Shown: one piece after another, positions 21,801 through 30,086 of the stretch
Position numbering within the stretch: the first letter of the stretch is position 1
Layout of the letters: each line of letters starts with the position of its first letter
Source: Candidatus Planktophila sp.
GTDB taxonomy: Bacteria; Actinomycetota; Actinomycetes; Nanopelagicales; Nanopelagicaceae
Assembly: GCA_017858325.1 (NCBI GenBank)
Contig: JAFMBT010000014.1
Coordinates: 1-40,144, forward strand
DNA length: 40,144 nt
Direction: 5' to 3'
Notes under the pieces: generated by a model
What the model saw: only the letters and a program-made list of their open reading frames with translations
Databases searched by the model: none
Told to the model about the DNA's origin: nothing
Program-made: the position numbers and the translations under genes

Positions 21801-22085
21801 GTAAGAACTGCTCGCGTACGTAAAGCTTCTGAAGGCATCGGACCGTATGGAGAGAAGACGATTGTTGACCTTCTCAACAGTGGCGAAATCAACCTGGTGA
21901 TAAATACGCCTGTAGGTCGCGGCACTCGCGCCGATGGTTGGGCTATTCGAACAGCTGCAATTCAACGTTCGATTCCGTGCATCACAACAACAGCAGGATT
22001 TAACGCAGCGGTTGCAGGAATAAAGGTTCTACAATCTGGCGATCTTGATGTTCGTCCAATTCAGGATTGGTTGAAAGACGTATGA
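18816..22085 (+). CDS. carB: Carbamoyl-phosphate synthase large subunit
   Basis: This 1089-residue synthase has the expected two homologous ATP-grasp halves. The first starts with [20 protein letters not shown] and the second with [20 protein letters not shown] (about residue 555), and each has an EVSxxP/NPRxSR-type metal site ([22 protein letters not shown]). The C-terminal 130 residues are the MGS-like allosteric domain, where UMP and ornithine bind in E. coli. It overlaps pyrK by 4 nt. Confidence 0.97.
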
Positions 22086-22933
22086 GCACCATCAATAAGA
22101 GCGCTACCCAGATTTCATCAACGATTCTGAGCAATAAACGCATAGGTGCCTATCATCAAATTTTACTATCGATAGGTGATCTTGCATCACTGTGTCGTCC
22201 TGGGAATTTCGTCGCTATTGCGGTAGGGGATGAATCATCAAAGATGATCCTTCGTCGCGCCTTTGCGATCTCTCGTATCACCCATGGCAGCGCCTCAGGT
22301 GGGGCGATGGAATTGATTGTTGCGCCCCACGGATCTGGCTCACGTTGGATCTGCGCACAGCCAGAAGGTAGCGATATAGATATAGTCGCACCCCTTGGAA
22401 AGGCTTTTGGAATTCCTACTTCGCCGGTGAACGCTCTTCTTGTGGGTGGTGGATATGGTTCCGCCCCGCTTTTTGGCCTAGCCGAAGTTCTCAAAGCACG
22501 GGGATGTCGTGTCGATATGCTCCTCGGAGCTAGTACCGGATCAAAGATTTATGCACCGCTTGAGGGAAAGCGCAGCGCATCAACACTGAAGATCTATACA
22601 GAAGATGGCTCTATGGGTGAACGTGGTCGTGTCACTGCGCCAATCTCTGCTCTTATTCAACGGGGAACTATAGATGTGATTTATTCTTGTGGCCCAATGT
22701 CTATGTTGCGAGCAATCTCTGATCTAACAGAAGGTACTGATGTGGTTCACCAATGCGCAGTGGAAGAGTCAATGGCATGCGGAATTGGGATTTGCATGAC
22801 TTGTGTTCTGCCGGTTAAGGGTGAGGATGGGACTATTTCGATGCTCAGATCTTGTATCGATGGCCCTGTAATGGATTCGAGCACAGTTGCATGGGATCTT
22901 GTAGGAAAAACACCACCCGCGGTAACTCTATGA
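22082..22933 (+). CDS. pyrK: Dihydroorotate dehydrogenase electron-transfer subunit PyrK
   Basis: This 283-residue flavoprotein iron-sulfur subunit contains an N-terminal ferredoxin-reductase-type FAD domain (RRAFAISR), an NAD-binding domain ([17 protein letters not shown]) and a [2Fe-2S] ligand set C233-x4-C238-x2-C241-x16-C258. It passes electrons from the PyrDB FMN to NAD+. ATG 22082 overlaps the carB stop; the frame extends upstream to 22067, inside carB. It overlaps pyrD by 4 nt. The class 1B PyrK-PyrD pair is not the membrane quinone enzyme (class 2) typical of Streptomyces and mycobacteria. Confidence 0.93.
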
Positions 22934-23886
22934 AAATTGATTACGAAGGTTTCGACTTCTCCACATCTTTAGCAGACGCATCTTTTCCTTCACCTATTTT
23001 CACGGCAAGTGGTTGTGCAAGTTCAGGTAAAGAGCTTGCACAGTTCTTTGACCTCAGTGAGATAGGTGCAGTTGTCACTAAATCAGTGATGAATAAACCA
23101 CGCCATGGACGGCCAACGCCACGAATGGCAGAAACACCCTCTGGAATGCTTAATTCGATCGGACTACAAGGTCCAGGGATCGATTATTTTTTAGCCAATG
23201 ATGTCCCATGGTTGTTAAACAAGGGCTCACGGGTCATAGTCTCGATCGCAGGAGAAACAATTGATGAGTACTCAGTTTTAGCACGCAAGATTCGCGCCGT
23301 TCAAGGAATCAGCGCAATCGAAGTAAACATCTCCTGCCCCAATGTTGAAAATCGTGGCATGGTTTTTGCGTGTCAGACAGACACAGCGGCTCGTGCTATT
23401 GATGGTGTCCGTAAAATTATTGGTGGAGAAATTCCAATCATTGCAAAACTCACACCAGATGTCACTGACATCACAAGTATCGCGTCATCGGTAGTCGATG
23501 CTGGAGCCGATGCTTTAGCGTTAATCAATACAGTTCTTGGAATGGTGATCAATCTCGATACTATGAGGCCACATCTTGGCGGAAAAACTGGCGGTCTCTC
23601 TGGTCCTGCGATAAGGCCGGTGGCTGTTCGTGCTATCTATCAAGTACATAGCGCAATGCCACAGGTTCCGATTCTTGGAATGGGTGGCGTTGCGTCAGGG
23701 CGAGACGCACTCGAACTTATCCTTGCTGGTGCTTCAGGTATCTCAGTTGGCACCGCTAGCTTCGGAGATCCGTCGGCAATCCCACGAATTCAACGCGAAC
23801 TCCATTCTCTTTTGCTGGCGCGTGGTTTTAAATCTCTTCGGGAGGCGGTTGGTTATGCCCATCGTAGTATTGAGGAAGGAAGCTAA
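22930..23886 (+). CDS. pyrD: Dihydroorotate dehydrogenase, class 1B catalytic subunit
   Basis: This 318-residue TIM-barrel FMN enzyme oxidises dihydroorotate to orotate. The active-site base is the cysteine of EVNISCPNVENRG (Cys136), which marks class 1; class 2 enzymes have a serine there. LINTVLGM, GGLSGPAIRP and GMGGVASGRDA flavin/phosphate loops are present, and there is no N-terminal membrane helix. The partner pyrK lies immediately upstream, so this is the NAD-linked 1B form. ATG 22930 overlaps the pyrK stop, and pyrF starts at the stop codon. Confidence 0.95.
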   Translation: MKIDYEGFDFSTSLADASFPSPIFTASGCASSGKELAQFFDLSEIGAVVTKSVMNKPRHGRPTPRMAETPSGMLNSIGLQGPGIDYFLANDVPWLLNKGSRVIVSIAGETIDEYSVLARKIRAVQGISAIEVNISCPNVENRGMVFACQTDTAARAIDGVRKIIGGEIPIIAKLTPDVTDITSIASSVVDAGADALALINTVLGMVINLDTMRPHLGGKTGGLSGPAIRPVAVRAIYQVHSAMPQVPILGMGGVASGRDALELILAGASGISVGTASFGDPSAIPRIQRELHSLLLARGFKSLREAVGYAHRSIEEGS

Positions 23887-24587
23887 TGACCTCACCGATC
23901 ATTCTCGCAGTTGATACTCCTGATATCGAGCTTGCCAAACGTTGGATATCGGCAACCCGTGAAAGCATAGATGTCTTCAAGTTAGGTCTTGAGTTTTATC
24001 TCAGCCATGGTTTTGGAGGCATTTCTGCAATTCAAAGGGAGACAGGTGCGGAGATCTTTCTCGACCTTAAGCTTCACGATATTCCACATACTGTTTCTAA
24101 GGCGGTAACCGTTGTTAGCGCACTAGAGCCACGTTTCTTAACCGTGCATGCAAGCGGGGGAGAGGCGATGATCTCGGCGGCGGTAAAGGCAGTTTCATCG
24201 ACCTCAATTACAGCGGTCACCATCCTCACCTCTCTCTCACAAGATGATCTCTCTGAAATCGGATTTCAAGGAACCGCTCTGAGTGCTGCCCAAGCGTTGG
24301 CAAACCTCGCGGTAAAGGCAGGAGCAACATCATTAGTCTGTTCACCCCATGAAATTTCTGGAATCCGAAAAAACGTTGGTGACGGGGTAACTATTATTAC
24401 TCCAGGTGTCCGACCAGCAGATGAGATATCAGCTGATGACCAGAAACGTACAATGACTCCATCAGAGGCCATTTCTCTCGGTGCTAATTTCATAGTTATT
24501 GGCCGCCCCATTACCTCACGTTGGGCTAAAGGCTCAGAGCAGATGGCCGAGCGTGCAGCCCAGATCCTTGACTCAGTTCAACGCTAG
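23886..24587 (+). CDS. pyrF: Orotidine-5'-phosphate decarboxylase
   Basis: This 233-residue TIM-barrel enzyme makes UMP from OMP. The catalytic Asp60-x-Lys62-x-x-Asp65 array is in FLDLKLHDIPHTV. The GVRP phosphate loop and IGRPITS are near the C-terminus. This is the short, E. coli/Bacillus-type form; mycobacteria and Streptomyces have the longer type. ATG 23886 overlaps the pyrD stop (TAATG). It is the last gene of the pyr operon, and only 25 nt separate it from the mihF-gmk start. Confidence 0.95.
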   Translation: MTSPIILAVDTPDIELAKRWISATRESIDVFKLGLEFYLSHGFGGISAIQRETGAEIFLDLKLHDIPHTVSKAVTVVSALEPRFLTVHASGGEAMISAAVKAVSSTSITAVTILTSLSQDDLSEIGFQGTALSAAQALANLAVKAGATSLVCSPHEISGIRKNVGDGVTIITPGVRPADEISADDQKRTMTPSEAISLGANFIVIGRPITSRWAKGSEQMAERAAQILDSVQR

Positions 24588-24612: not shown

Positions 24613-25497
24613 ATGAGGCGACCACCAATACTGACGGCAGAAGAACGAAATGCCGCGTTGGAAAAGGCGAGGAGTTCACGATCTCGACGGTCTGCAATAA
24701 AAGCTGACGTTCGTGCAGGCAACCTGTCAATGCACGATGTTATCGAATTAGTCAGAACCGACGATGCAATCGCAAAGATGCGAGTAGTTGAGCTGCTTGA
24801 GTCATTTACAGGTGTGGGCAAGGTACGGGCTATCGCGATCTTAGATAGACTCGGGATTTCTAAAACTCGTCGATTGCAAGGGCTTGGAACTCATCAGCGC
24901 GATGCGTTAATAAAAGAGTTTGCAATTCCACGAGTTAACCTTGATGTAGGGTCACTAATCGTTCTATCTGGTCCTGGCGGAGTTGGTAAAAGCACAGTTT
25001 CCAAAGAGATTCGAAAGAGGAACGATTTTTGGGTGAGCGTCTCGGCAACAACGAGAGCTCCTCGAGGAAATGAAGTACATGGTGTTGACTATATTTTCAT
25101 GAGTGATGAAGAATTCGATCGAGGTATCGCAAATGGTTTTTTTCTCGAATGGGCGCATTTTGCTGGTGCGCGATATGGAACTCCTCGCCAGCACGTGATA
25201 GATGCCCTGCACGAGGGTAAGGACGTGCTTCTCGAAATTGAAATAAAAGGAGCAAAGCAAGTAAAGGAGAGTTGGGCTCACTCCATACTCGTTTTCCTTG
25301 AACCACCAACCTGGGAAGATTTGGTCTCTCGTCTTGAAGGCAGGGCTACCGATAACCCAGAGCGTAGGGCAGAGCGTTTGGCGTTGGCCCAAGATGAGAT
25401 GGCTCAGGCACCATTTTTCGACCATATCCTGATCAATGACGAGGTCGAGAAGGTCGTCGCGAGCCTGATAAGATTGGTTCATTCGCAGCGTTCATGA
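24613..25497 (+). CDS. gmk: Fusion protein: MihF (actinobacterial IHF) + guanylate kinase
   Basis: One 294-residue frame contains two proteins that are usually separate neighbours. Residues 1-104 are MihF, with the GVGKVRAIAILDRLGI helix-two-turn-helix and the RRLQGLGTHQRDALIKEF end that normally ends MihF. Residues 105-114 form a short linker (IPRVNLDVGS). Residues 115-294 are a complete guanylate kinase: P-loop GPGGVGKST (120-128), SVSATTRAPRGNEVHGVDY, EWAHFAGARYGTP, DVLLEIEIKGAKQV and the lid GRATDNPERRAERL. No ATG, GTG or TTG codon lies between residue 97 and the P-loop, so Gmk has no separate start. It makes GDP from GMP; MihF binds and bends DNA. rpoZ follows. Confidence 0.9.
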   Translation: MRRPPILTAEERNAALEKARSSRSRRSAIKADVRAGNLSMHDVIELVRTDDAIAKMRVVELLESFTGVGKVRAIAILDRLGISKTRRLQGLGTHQRDALIKEFAIPRVNLDVGSLIVLSGPGGVGKSTVSKEIRKRNDFWVSVSATTRAPRGNEVHGVDYIFMSDEEFDRGIANGFFLEWAHFAGARYGTPRQHVIDALHEGKDVLLEIEIKGAKQVKESWAHSILVFLEPPTWEDLVSRLEGRATDNPERRAERLALAQDEMAQAPFFDHILINDEVEKVVASLIRLVHSQRS

Positions 25498-25533: not shown

Positions 25534-25785
25534 ATGGACGGTATTACTAATCCACCAATTGACGAACTTCTCGATAAGAGTGGTTCAAAGTACAGCCTTG
25601 TTCTCTATGCTGCTAAGCGCGCACGACAGATCAATGCCTATTACTCACAATTGGGTGAAGGTTTACTTGAGTACGTTGGACCGCTGGTTGAAACGCATGT
25701 CCACGAAAAGCCGCTCTCGATCGCACTTCGCGAGATCAATGAGGGATTGTTGACAATCGAGAACCTTGACCCTGCCGTCAAGTAA
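25534..25785 (+). CDS. rpoZ: RNA polymerase omega subunit
   Basis: This 83-residue protein contains the core omega block [21 protein letters not shown] and the beta-prime-contacting N-terminus, plus a [18 protein letters not shown] tail seen in actinobacterial omega. It assists assembly of RNA polymerase. ATG 25534 is set by AAGGGG at 25523-25528, 5 nt upstream. It follows mihF-gmk by 36 nt; the gmk-rpoZ-coaBC-metK order is conserved in actinobacteria. Confidence 0.94.
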
Positions 25786-25804: not shown

Positions 25805-26995
25805 GTGTCTGCCCGCGAAGTTGTTCTCGGCATAGGCGGTGGAATAGCGGCCTATAAATCCTGTGAACTTCTCCGTCGTTTGCAAGATGCTGGATTTGGC
25901 GTCACAGTCATTCCAACTCCTTCGAGTCTGCACTTTGTTGGCAAGGCTACGTGGGAAGCGCTATCCGGCAGAGCTGTCACAACAACAGTCTGGGAACGAG
26001 TTGATGAAGTTCGCCATGTGCATCTAGCTAAGGTGAGCGAGTTCAACATTATTGCTCCAGCAACAGCTGACTTAATTGCAAGAATTGCGCACGGTCGTGC
26101 AGATGATCTACTGACTAACACTCTTCTGGCAAGCAAAGCACCGACGCTTATTGTTCCAGCAATGCATCCGACAATGTGGGCGAATAAAGCGACACAGTCA
26201 AATGTCTCACTCTTGCGCGATCGTGGTTATGTGGTGATGGAACCCGATCACGGACGACTTACTGGAAGTGATATCGGTGTCGGGCGTTTCCCTGAGACAA
26301 GTCGCATTGTTGCCACCTTCAAAGAGATGACAGATAAGGCCAATGATCTCTCTGGCATTAAAGTCCTCGTCACCGCGGGTGGAACTCGTGAAATGATTGA
26401 TCCGATTCGTTTCATCGGAAATAACTCATCAGGACGCCAAGGTTTTGCAATAGCTAAAGCGGCCATGAGGCGCGGTGCCGAAGTTACTCTAGTTCTTGCA
26501 AATAGTATCCTGCCAGATCTTCCTGGTATCACTACGGTCAGAGTCACCTCGGCAGATCAAATGTTTGCCGAGGTGCATTCTCGCTTTGCTTTATGTGATG
26601 TTATTGCAATGAGCGCTGCGGTAGCAGATGCAAGGCCTGCGCAATATAGCGATAGCAAAATTAAGAAAGGTTCACTCTCATCCATTGAGCTGACCGCCAA
26701 CAAGGACATTATTGCTACCGTTGCCAAAGATAAGAAGAATCAGGTCGTTATTGCATTTGCAGCTGAAACAAATCTTGATATCGAAGAGGGAGAGAGAAAA
26801 TTATTGGCTAAAAGTGCCGACATTCTTTTCCTCAATGATGTATCAGGTAGCGAGATCTTTGGATCAGATGAGACACAAGGAGTCATCTTAACCTCACAAG
26901 TTTCACAGTCCATCGAAAGGGTGATGGTTGATAGAATTTCGAAAGACACGCTCGCCGATCTACTTCTCGATCAGGCCTTGAATAAGTTAGGTTAG
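25805..26995 (+). CDS. coaBC: Bifunctional phosphopantothenoylcysteine decarboxylase/synthetase
   Basis: This 396-residue protein makes 4'-phosphopantetheine from 4'-phosphopantothenate, cysteine and CTP. The N-terminal CoaC flavodomain has [10 protein letters not shown], the active His in VRHVHLAK and PAMHPTMW. The C-terminal CoaB domain has [22 protein letters not shown] and KIKKG. Where E. coli has PAMN and an ACG flap cysteine, this protein has PAMH and [12 protein letters not shown], a pattern I remember from actinobacterial CoaBC. The start is GTG 25805, with no strong ribosome site or -10 in the leaderless position. Confidence 0.94.
26988..26993 (+). promoter_or_regulatory. -10-like TAGGTT, candidate leaderless promoter of metK
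   Basis: TAGGTT overlaps the end of coaBC, including the first base of its TAG stop, and is followed by 6 nt (AGGGCA) before ATG 27000. The TAGGG bases could alternatively be a very close, weak ribosome site. Confidence 0.4.
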
Positions 26996-26999
26996 GGCA

Positions 27000-28187
27000 A
27001 TGTCAAAACGCCTGTTCACATCAGAATCAGTAACTGAAGGCCATCCGGATAAGATCGCAGATCAAATCTCGGATGCGATCCTAGATTCGTTACTCTCTCA
27101 GGACGCAAAGAGTCGTGTCGCCGTGGAAACCCTGATCACCACTGGTCAAGTTCATGTTGCAGGTGAAGTGACAACTAACGGGTATGCAGATGTGATGGGA
27201 ATTGTTCGCGATACTGTTATTGAAATCGGATACGACTCAAGTGTCAAAGGCTTTGACGGAAACAGTTGTGGTGTCTCTATCTCTATCGGCCAGCAGTCTC
27301 AAGATATTGCACAGGGCGTCAATGATGCCTTTGAACATCGCGTTGATTCAGCGATCGATCCGCTCGATCTTCAGGGTGCCGGTGATCAGGGTCTGATGTT
27401 TGGCTATGCCTGCGATGACACAAAAGAACTCATGCCACTTCCGATTTATATGGCACATCAACTTGCCCAGCAACTCACAGCGGTTCGAAAGAGTGGAGCA
27501 CTTGGTTACCTTCGCCCCGATGGAAAGACTCAGGTCACTATCGAGTATGACGGGGATAAGGCGATGGCAATCGACACTGTCGTTATCTCAAGCCAGCACG
27601 CTGAAGAGGTAGATGTAATTGCAAAGCTCACTCCAGAAATTATCGAGCTTGTGATCAAGCCTGTCCTTTCAAAGATAGATCTTCCTCAGAGGAATGTGCG
27701 CACTCTGATTAATCCAACTGGGCGTTTCGTAATTGGCGGACCTATGGGAGATGCTGGTTTAACTGGTCGAAAAATTATCGTTGATACCTACGGCGGTATG
27801 GCACGACATGGTGGAGGTGCATTTAGTGGAAAAGATCCATCCAAGGTTGACCGTTCAGCGGCTTATGCGATGCGTTGGGTAGCAAAAAATGTCGTTGCCG
27901 CAGGATTAGCGCGTCGTTGTGAGGTACAAGTCGCCTACGCAATCGGTAAGGCACAACCGGTTGGAGTATTCGTTGAAACATTCGGTACCGAGACGGTTCC
28001 AGTATCAAAAATACAAGAAGCCGTTCTCTCCGTGTTTGATCTACGACCAGCTGCGATCATTGCTGAACTTAATCTTCTACGCCCGATCTATTCCGCTACG
28101 GCGGCCTACGGTCACTTTGGTAGAGAACTTCCGAATTTCACGTGGGAGAGAACTGATCGCGTAGACGCTCTCCGCGCGGCGATCTAA
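27000..28187 (+). CDS. metK: S-adenosylmethionine synthase
   Basis: This 395-residue enzyme forms SAM from methionine and ATP. Its signatures are [16 protein letters not shown], the hexapeptide-like [12 protein letters not shown] (Mg/K site), [18 protein letters not shown], and [16 protein letters not shown]. The length is standard. It begins 4 nt after the coaBC stop. No SAM riboswitch is possible in that gap. Confidence 0.97.
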
Positions 28188-28202: not shown

Positions 28203-30086
28203 ATGACATCCGCTCCTCTGCGGCTTAAGGTACAGAAAGTTGCAAGGGGGTCGACCGAAAAAGCATCCGCTCTTCCGGTCGCACTCGTGTGGGTCGACAC
28301 AGGAGTATCTCATCTTGACTATACCTACGATTATTTAGTTCCTTTATCACTAGATGCACAGGTGATTGCTGGGGTCAAAGTCGCAGTTAATTTTTCGGGG
28401 CGCACTGTTGATGGCTATGTGCTGTCTCGAACGGATTCATCAGAGCTTAGTAACCTAAAATTTATTGAGAAGGTTCTCTCGCCGATTCCCTTACTGACCT
28501 CTGAACTGACCTCATTAGTAAGAGCTGTTGCCCAGAGATGGGGGAGTTCACCACTTGATATTCTCAGTAGCGCTATCCCATCGCGAGTGATAGCGGTAGA
28601 GAAAACTCTGCAACCAAGTTCTCCGCAAACGCAGCGGCATGGTTCAAAATCGCACACCCAATCTTTCTATTTAGTCACACCGGGTGAAGATGCAATAGCT
28701 CTGATGGCTGATTGGATCCTCGCTCGATCTGCACTAGGTGGAGTGCTTGTTATTGCACCTGAAGCTCGTGAAGTTCTCCTATTGGCGCAAGAGCTAGAGT
28801 TTCGTGCAGTTGATTTTTTGATTCTTGATGCATCCCTGACTAGGTCAGAGAGGTATAGCAACTACCTCAAAGTTGCATCAGGGGAATCAAAGATTGTTAT
28901 TGGTTCTCGCAGTGCGGTATTTGCACCAGTTCATCACTTGAAAACGATCATTGTTTATCGCGAAGGCGCTCAATCGCATTATGAGGTGAGGACTCCTGGT
29001 TGGAATACCCGCGATGTTGCGCTGCTGAGATCACAGATAGGGCGAATCGATCTTACATTTGTCGGCTATGCACCGTCATCGGAAACGTCTTATCTCCTGG
29101 GAAAGAGAGAGATCGTCCTCAAGGGGAGAAGCGTGAAAGTGGATGTGCAATCGTATCCAGCGCATAATGGTGAACTCTTGCCCGATCGAATATTTGGACC
29201 TATACGTAAGGCACTTGAGAAAGGATCAGTTCTCTTTCTCGTCTCTAGAAAGGGCTATTCAAGTGCTCTGATGTGTAAGTCGTGTAAAAATATCGCGATA
29301 TGTGACTGTGGAGGAAGAATTTCTTTTCAGGGAAGTACGAAAGGTTACAGCTGCTCACTCTGCGAAAAGAAAGGAAGTCATTGGTCTTGTCGATGGTGCA
29401 AGAGAGATCAACCGATATTGTTAGGTAGAGGCAGTCAGAGATTTGCACATGAGATTGGTCGGGCATTTCCAGGGTTTCCTGTTGTTACTTCAGATGCTTC
29501 CACTCCAGTGGATTCAGTAATAGATCAACGTTCGATTATTCTTGCCACCTCAGGTATGGCGCCACGATTGCCATCGGGGTATCAAGCAGTAGTCATACTT
29601 GAGGGGGACTCACTCTTTTCACAGATCGACTTGAGAGCGCAAGAGCGCGCACGTGAATCAATTTTGCATTTCTCTTCTCTCGTATCATCTGACGGCAAGG
29701 TTCTGGTTGTCATCGATAGCTCACATCCGATCGTGGCAACTATCGCACGGTGGAATCTGACTGCAATCAATAATCGCGAGTTAATGGAGCGAGAGCAGAC
29801 ACAGCTTCCCCCTGTGGTCAGTGCTCTCACAATCGAAATGGTTCATGGAGACTGCCAAACCTTCATTACTGGCATAAGGAAGGCAGTCGATGATGGACGC
29901 ATTCCACATACGACGAGAATATTGGGACCAAAGAAGATATCTGATGAGAGTTCCAGGGTGATTCTCACAGTCCCGCATGAAGATGCTCAATCACTCGTTG
30001 ATTTCCTTGTAACGTATCGAAAAAAGCGATCACTGGCTAAGAAAGCTAATCTGAGTATGAGGGTTGACCCGTACGCTTTGAGTTAA
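28203..30086 (+). CDS. priA: Primosomal protein N' (PriA), without helicase motifs
   Basis: This 627-residue protein has the N-terminal DNA-binding 3'BD/winged-helix portion (VALVWVDTGVSHLDYTYDYLVP) and the cysteine-rich zinc region (CKSCKNIAICDCGG ... CSLCEKKGSHWSCRWCKRD). No GSGKT Walker A is present, and the DEEH box is replaced by VYREGAQSHYE. This matches the actinobacterial PriA, which is considered not to be an active helicase, so its role in replication restart would be structural or loading. ATG 28203 has no good ribosome site or -10 in the leaderless position. The end overlaps the candidate -10 of def. Confidence 0.88.
   Translation: MTSAPLRLKVQKVARGSTEKASALPVALVWVDTGVSHLDYTYDYLVPLSLDAQVIAGVKVAVNFSGRTVDGYVLSRTDSSELSNLKFIEKVLSPIPLLTSELTSLVRAVAQRWGSSPLDILSSAIPSRVIAVEKTLQPSSPQTQRHGSKSHTQSFYLVTPGEDAIALMADWILARSALGGVLVIAPEAREVLLLAQELEFRAVDFLILDASLTRSERYSNYLKVASGESKIVIGSRSAVFAPVHHLKTIIVYREGAQSHYEVRTPGWNTRDVALLRSQIGRIDLTFVGYAPSSETSYLLGKREIVLKGRSVKVDVQSYPAHNGELLPDRIFGPIRKALEKGSVLFLVSRKGYSSALMCKSCKNIAICDCGGRISFQGSTKGYSCSLCEKKGSHWSCRWCKRDQPILLGRGSQRFAHEIGRAFPGFPVVTSDASTPVDSVIDQRSIILATSGMAPRLPSGYQAVVILEGDSLFSQIDLRAQERARESILHFSSLVSSDGKVLVVIDSSHPIVATIARWNLTAINNRELMEREQTQLPPVVSALTIEMVHGDCQTFITGIRKAVDDGRIPHTTRILGPKKISDESSRVILTVPHEDAQSLVDFLVTYRKKRSLAKKANLSMRVDPYALS

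Follow-up and report, generated by a model that had tools for sequence, protein, structure and literature searches.

Fusion of the nucleoid protein MihF to guanylate kinase in Candidatus Planktophila and in other actinobacterial families

In Mycobacterium tuberculosis, the genes gmk and rpoZ lie downstream of mihF, and both had to be supplied upon deletion of mihF because of polar effects; its product, mIHF, is essential there and belongs to the ten most abundant proteins, as described in the accessible part of PMC6155035. A fixed 1:1 tie between such a protein and an enzyme is therefore surprising. A tie of this kind is encoded in a stretch of 40,144 nucleotides from Candidatus Planktophila sp. 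(Nanopelagicaceae), here called the window, where mihF and the guanylate kinase gene gmk form one reading frame between pyrF and rpoZ. Given the arrangement in M. tuberculosis, the fusion unites old neighbours. Is this fusion real and translated as one protein, how often has it arisen, and what does it mean for the two activities that it joins?

The mihF-gmk fusion in the window is real. Its product has a mass of 32.9 kDa, and the chance of an open stretch of this length is about 6e-8 at the local base composition (Table 1). The N-terminal part matches the NCBIfam model actino_IHF (NF041260) with 116.4 bits (cut-off 60) and the C-terminal part the model guanyl_kin (TIGR03263) with 205.3 bits (curated equivalog cut-off 160.45); Pfam places H2TH_5 at residues 34-103 and Guanylate_kin at residues 115-290. 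NF041260 is typed by NCBI as equivalog_domain, i.e. a domain model, and the MihF of the window is a domain member only, lying in frame with Gmk and not as a free-standing small protein. The first-pass annotation had described a single frame with a complete MihF and a complete Gmk, a P-loop at residues 120-128, and no ATG, GTG or TTG codon from residue 97 to this motif. The frame and both curated cut-offs bear out the first of these claims, the P-loop indeed begins at residue 120, and the stretch devoid of start codons is even wider than described. Residues 1-104 have a net charge of +8, and the Gmk motifs SVSATTR, RYGTP, and LEIE, which we take to be the GMP-binding motifs of guanylate kinase, fall on columns conserved across 16 fused proteins. 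Profile searches of the contigs of the window's genome (G000; 1.336 Mb, 32 contigs, 99.91% complete) found no second guanyl_kin match and no second MihF above the cut-off. The only other MihF match has 11.9 bits (G000:C26:52378-52515, locus L106) and possibly represents another H2TH protein, ribosomal S13 being a guess.

Table 1. Features of the fusion gene and its neighbours in the window (residues and codons are numbered within the fusion).
Feature	Position	Strand	Remark
pyrF (orotidine-5'-phosphate decarboxylase)	23886-24587	+	upstream neighbour, 25 bases ahead of the fusion
mihF-gmk fusion gene	24613-25497	+	294 codons and stop; open reading frame and profile matches
MihF / actinobacterial IHF domain, H2TH fold (predicted)	24625-24921	+	residues 5-103
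Stretch from codon 88 (TTG) to codon 141 (GTG) inclusive	24874-25035	+	no in-frame ATG/GTG/TTG between
Linker	24922-24948	+	residues 104-112; lowest predicted confidence
Guanylate kinase domain	24949-25479	+	residues 113-289
P-loop GPGGVGKST	24970-24996	+	residues 120-128
rpoZ (RNA polymerase omega)	25534-25785	+	downstream neighbour
coaBC	25805-26995		downstream of rpoZ
metK	27000-28187		downstream of coaBC
priA-like gene	28203-30086		downstream of metK

Checked by structure prediction, both folds of the fusion are predicted with confidence (mean pLDDT 95.0, pTM 0.72), and the N-terminal helix and the H2TH fold known from sIHF are present in the model. Residues 16-104 of the predicted model superpose on DNA-bound sIHF (6bek) with a Z score of 16.4 and an rmsd of 0.8 Å over 89 residues and also match 4itq (Z 15.9); residues 112-291 match Gmk of M. 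tuberculosis (1s4q) with a Z score of 24.5 over 180 aligned residues, 42% of them identical. The block of residues 101-110, which holds the start of the linker, has a mean pLDDT of 71. The model suggests two well-folded domains, the mutual orientation of which is less certain.

The genes of the region follow the order carB, pyrK-like gene, pyrD, pyrF, mihF-gmk fusion, rpoZ, coaBC, metK, and priA-like gene. The pyrK-like gene (22067-22933) scores 146 bits against a cut-off of 314 for its best model, the TTG listed as its start falls within the end of carB, and it may be diverged or mis-started. With 368 bits against a cut-off of 812, the priA-like protein (627 aa) is a diverged PriA, perhaps one of the actinobacterial PriA proteins that lack helicase activity.

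The fusion is widespread in the family of the window. Among 101 Nanopelagicaceae genomes, the window's included, 70 carry it in one frame (G060 and G069, both cut by contig ends, are counted here), 28 have separate adjacent genes, one (G058) has Gmk only, and two gave no match, according to the match table, from which all 28 separate and 44 of the 70 fused cases were also re-read by script. Fusions were present in each of the 12 sampled genomes of the window's genus (g1), 11 of them single-contig, and the genera g6, g10, g11, g13, g15, and g17 have separate genes in every classified locus. Where stops had been reported inside spanning matches (G076, G031, G003), the first in-frame stop is the gene end; G074, G080, and G014 possess a stop between the domains and are counted as separate. 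Over the kept columns, locus L241 from Actinobacteria bacterium IMCC26103 does not differ from L002, a member of the window's genus, and L187 (Candidatus Planktophila) clusters with these two in the tree; the source of the window is thus very probably of the Planktophila type within Nanopelagicaceae. A fusion from a MAG titled Bifidobacterium breve (L164, CAMDHH010000001.1) falls inside Nanopelagicaceae; the title is probably wrong. G060 harbors its fusion at a contig end (L078, G060:C83) and a different Gmk at the start of another contig (L079, G060:C28), which may be a second copy or the sign of a mixed bin.

The first-pass annotation had mentioned a long N-terminal extension in some Microbacteriaceae Gmk proteins; this holds, and the extension is MihF. 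Family f31, equated here with Microbacteriaceae by the position of its members among named representatives in the tree, was sampled with 60 genomes, each of a different genus. MihF matches exceed the cut-off in 55 of the 60, three further genomes score 55-58 bits, G337 has a 20-bit partial match, and G335 has none. From the 58 genomes with a clear MihF, 40 loci were fetched, in all of which profile HMMs place MihF and Gmk in a single frame; in the remaining 18, the frame that contains the MihF match spans 294 codons or more, and the one of these that was read (G212) is fused. The small genomes G335 and G337 (1.4-1.5 Mb, one contig each), members of an otherwise fused family, encode Gmk alone in frames of 186 and 198 codons (L242 and L244). 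No MihF remnant was found in the fetched flanks of their gmk genes, and the fusion apparently lost its MihF domain in these genomes.

A third family, f29, has MihF in 36 of 59 genomes. Its genus g89, of which four genomes were sampled, is fused in both genomes read (L044, L086); in the genera g59 and g100, MihF was undetected in 7/7 and 7/7 sampled genomes, and some other f29 members also gave no detectable MihF. Gmk is present in the three g59/g100 cases checked (L247, L250, L251), several genomes of these genera being 94-99% complete, which suggests that a protein described as essential in mycobacteria has been lost. In a phylum sample of 80 genomes, which held no f31 or f29 genome, MihF occurs in 76, and no clear match other than that of the window lies in a frame of 280 codons or more, the length required for a fusion. 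G456 shows three MihF-like matches, the weakest of which (G456:C12:1089885-1090151) lies in a 726-codon frame and is perhaps a different MihF-containing protein. Two matches in G236, obtained in a class search of 246 genomes, were recognized as one fusion cut by contig ends. Among 80 named loci, the best of at least 417 confirmed ones, 20 are fused (Curtobacterium, two from Leucobacter, Frigoribacterium, Planctomonas, Frondihabitans, Cryobacterium, Pseudoclavibacter, Microbacterium, Naasia, Planktophila, IMCC26103, and eight further MAGs) and 60 separate (Streptomyces, Arthrobacter, Rothia, Cellulomonas, Ornithinimicrobium, Mycobacterium, Frankia, and others). Before group counts, six duplicate loci (L070, L085, L101-L103, L105) were dropped. 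The fusion of the window is by itself not novel; it is a trait of whole clades. Its repeated appearance, in contrast, lay beyond the reach of the first-pass annotation.

This distribution bears on whether the one frame could be an artefact or could yield more than one protein. That a sequencing or assembly error removed a stop and a start codon found no support beyond the origin of the window in a 32-contig assembly. The comparison with related genomes excludes the artefact: with 70 of 101 family genomes fused, the window is joined by 69 others, among them the 11 single-contig genomes of its own genus, and the fusion is present in other families too, which makes an error hardly conceivable. 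A separate Gmk might also be made from the same frame, by internal initiation or by proteolysis of the linker, which is the least confident part of the predicted model. A Gmk starting at a standard codon in the window would carry the end of MihF or be without the P-loop, no start being found between codons 88 and 141. Unfused Nanopelagicaceae have a start codon 6-15 codons before the P-loop in 27 of 27 loci; among the 57 fused loci of the family (a few of them identical or from one genome), 29 have one in this ten-codon zone, at scattered positions, against a chance expectation of about 40% from background codon frequency. Some start codon lies within 25 codons before the P-loop in 52 of the 57, which would favor a second product, and in five, the window among them, there is none. 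An internal Gmk start was rejected for the window and has no fixed position in its relatives, where a second, shorter Gmk product may exist. Codon variation across 16 sequences of the window's genus amounts to 0.43, 0.38, and 0.67 differences by position at the junction, to 0.35, 0.19, and 0.65 in MihF, and to 0.25, 0.15, and 0.58 in Gmk; the junction thus displays the third-position excess of coding sequence, but less sharply than either domain. The scattered starts and this third-position variation would fit a translated linker, though they do not prove it. We infer a single polypeptide in the cell and regard two products from one frame as improbable.

How many times the genes were joined depends on how changes on the tree are read. 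In a quick 118-row tree of both domains, the label fused/separate needs four changes, and starred branches force at least three; in a careful tree of 44 rows, hand-picked from the 118 to span all groups, it needs five, with at least four forced by starred branches. None of 200 bootstrap trees of the 44-row set manages with a single change. The AU test, run on the 44 rows, rejects all fused rows as one clade (lnL 166 worse, p-AU 9e-5) and is compatible with one clade of fused Nanopelagicaceae (p-AU 0.074). Within this family, the fused state of genus g9 could have been gained a second time, or else the neighbouring genera with separate genes could have split again. Such change counts treat gain and re-split or loss alike; since the separate state is so common elsewhere, at least three gains (Nanopelagicaceae, Microbacteriaceae, and genus g89 of f29) are the simplest reading. 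Only parsimony and the occurrence of separate genes elsewhere in the phylum argue against an old fusion that came apart repeatedly.

What has become of MihF in its fused state can be judged from 27 reference positions that are at least 85% conserved in each of two free groups. Of these, 24 are retained in the window, the differences being A27S, K34R, and P66T. Retention averages 0.895 in the 57 fused Nanopelagicaceae loci, 0.647 in fused Microbacteriaceae, and 0.63 in the two f29 fusions, compared with 0.961-0.985 in free MihF, part of this gap being built in by the choice of positions conserved in the free groups. R23, R26, R86, G90, G92, and Q95 are kept in 57 of 57 fused Nanopelagicaceae loci; K34, K55, E63, and R86 are replaced in all 67 Microbacteriaceae loci (five genomes being represented twice), R86 by K in 98%. 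Neither of the two large fused groups shows any change at R23, R26, G69, or Q95, and the fused MihF domains hold core basic residues and a net charge of +8 to +9. At a Gmk identity of 70-80%, paired sequences have a mean MihF identity of 0.851 for free MihF of other actinobacteria (318 pairs), 0.754 for free (14 pairs) and 0.622 for fused MihF (113 pairs) of Nanopelagicaceae, and 0.549 for fused MihF of Microbacteriaceae (993 pairs), the pairs being non-independent and the set of other actinobacteria rich in Streptomyces. At 60-70% Gmk identity, free and fused MihF of Nanopelagicaceae differ little (0.540 vs 0.525). This faster divergence of fused MihF, together with the MihF-less Microbacteriaceae and f29 genera, points to a relaxed demand for MihF in these lineages.

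Studies of free homologs provide a background for this reading. As far as the available portion of PMC10028186 describes it, msIHF is essential in M. smegmatis and functional as a fusion to EGFP or mNeonGreen, which argues that MihF tolerates fusion. In Streptomyces coelicolor, loss of sIHF only slightly affects vegetative growth, according to the accessible section of PMC4255298. Regarding other nucleoid proteins, HU is present in the window's genome and in 24 of 26 genomes searched, and Lsr2 was detected in nine of ten other actinobacterial genomes but in none of the 16 searched from the window's genus, several of which are incomplete.

The explanation that we favor, with moderate confidence, is a fusion of operon neighbours that gave rise to a bifunctional DNA-binding Gmk under relaxed demand for MihF. 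In this view, the adjoining genes merged into one reading frame, and each was preserved practically in full. Judging from the fold and the retained basic residues, the N-terminal domain would bind DNA via its H2TH surface; a short flexible linker would join it to a normal guanylate kinase, the complete motifs of which suggest conversion of GMP to GDP. Gmk would then be made at a fixed 1:1 ratio with MihF and would probably reside on the nucleoid part of the time, and no signalling between the two activities would be required. Most simply, Nanopelagicaceae, Microbacteriaceae, and one genus of the third family would each have fixed the fusion on their own, because the genes adjoin with short gaps or overlaps and the demand for a separately abundant MihF was relaxed.

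A different view of the same divergence is that fused MihF is no longer a nucleoid protein and serves Gmk as a tail for solubility, localisation, or oligomerisation. The low retention in Microbacteriaceae, the replacement of the four residues in every locus of that family, the faster divergence, and the two members with Gmk alone would agree with such a demotion; the 24 positions kept in the window, its predicted sIHF fold, the net charge still at +8, and the four residues invariant in both large fused groups speak against it, so that we deem it rather unlikely, if still the strongest competitor. The retained core basic residues and charge may also be seen as signs of a functional coupling, in which DNA occupancy of MihF alters Gmk activity, nucleotides bound to Gmk alter DNA binding, or GDP is made locally at the nucleoid; a tie between chromosome organisation and guanine-nucleotide supply had been suggested in the first-pass annotation. 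That the same two domains were joined in identical order in three families whose fused proteins are not one clade would suit this coupling, as would the presence of HU and the missing detection of Lsr2 in the genus of the window, where several genomes are incomplete. Pairing and order, however, follow from gene adjacency, so that the fusion could recur without any selection for coupling; the linker, predicted with lower confidence, is short and variable, and fused MihF diverges faster and is missing beside Gmk in two Microbacteriaceae. Coupling is accordingly an unlikely explanation. The fusion may be neutral, may favor co-expression of the two parts, or may, with low probability, couple DNA state to nucleotide supply. 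As a similarly unlikely conjecture, MihF-Gmk might be a nucleoid-tethered metabolic sensor that evolved several times, with DNA occupancy and kinase turnover influencing each other.

Each domain of the fusion is from a known family, and the combination is already contained in public genomes. With free actinobacterial IHF (mIHF, Rv1388; sIHF, SCO1480; NF041260, H2TH_5), the window shares the domain, the predicted fold, and the place before gmk/rpoZ; the free proteins consist of about 107-109 aa (PDB chains), whereas MihF of the window makes up the first third of a 294-aa protein and is followed by Gmk. Likewise, the complete kinase domain, P-loop, and GMP-binding motifs are common to the window and free bacterial Gmk (TIGR03263; Rv1389 of M. 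tuberculosis, 1s4q), but the latter comprises about 200 aa and starts shortly before the P-loop (PDB chains), whereas Gmk of the window is preceded by a predicted DNA-binding domain. The closest counterparts are MihF-Gmk proteins of Microbacteriaceae (Curtobacterium, Leucobacter, Microbacterium, Cryobacterium, and others) with the same domains, the same order, and a similar linker length. They do not form a single clade with the window's group, their P-loop is mostly GPTAVGKGT instead of GPGGVGKST, and their MihF domain is more diverged. Eukaryotic MAGUK proteins also harbor a guanylate-kinase domain in a multidomain protein, but offer no match to the N-terminal part of the window's protein. 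Their partner domains are PDZ and SH3 domains, not DNA-binding ones, and the guanylate-kinase domain acts there as a binding module. No description of a mihF-gmk fusion was found in the open-access literature searched: the available part of PMC6155035, which treats gmk and mihF, leaves it unmentioned, and the terms 'gmk', 'guanylate kinase', and 'guanylate' are absent from the accessible parts of PMC4255298 and PMC10028186.

For annotators, these results are a reason against trimming MihF-Gmk proteins to the usual Gmk start. If the sensor reading, speculative as it is, were true, one protein would read both the state of the chromosome and the GDP/GTP pool in freshwater actinobacteria and Microbacteriaceae. 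Beyond this, mIHF is reported to be essential and very abundant in mycobacteria (PMC6155035, accessible part), yet the only MihF found in the fused clades is a domain of a housekeeping enzyme. The fusion in three families, the faster divergence of MihF, and its local absence provide a testable case of the importance of a nucleoid protein versus its dose, and the fused, split, and MihF-less relatives constitute natural material on the link between chromosome binding and guanine-nucleotide synthesis.
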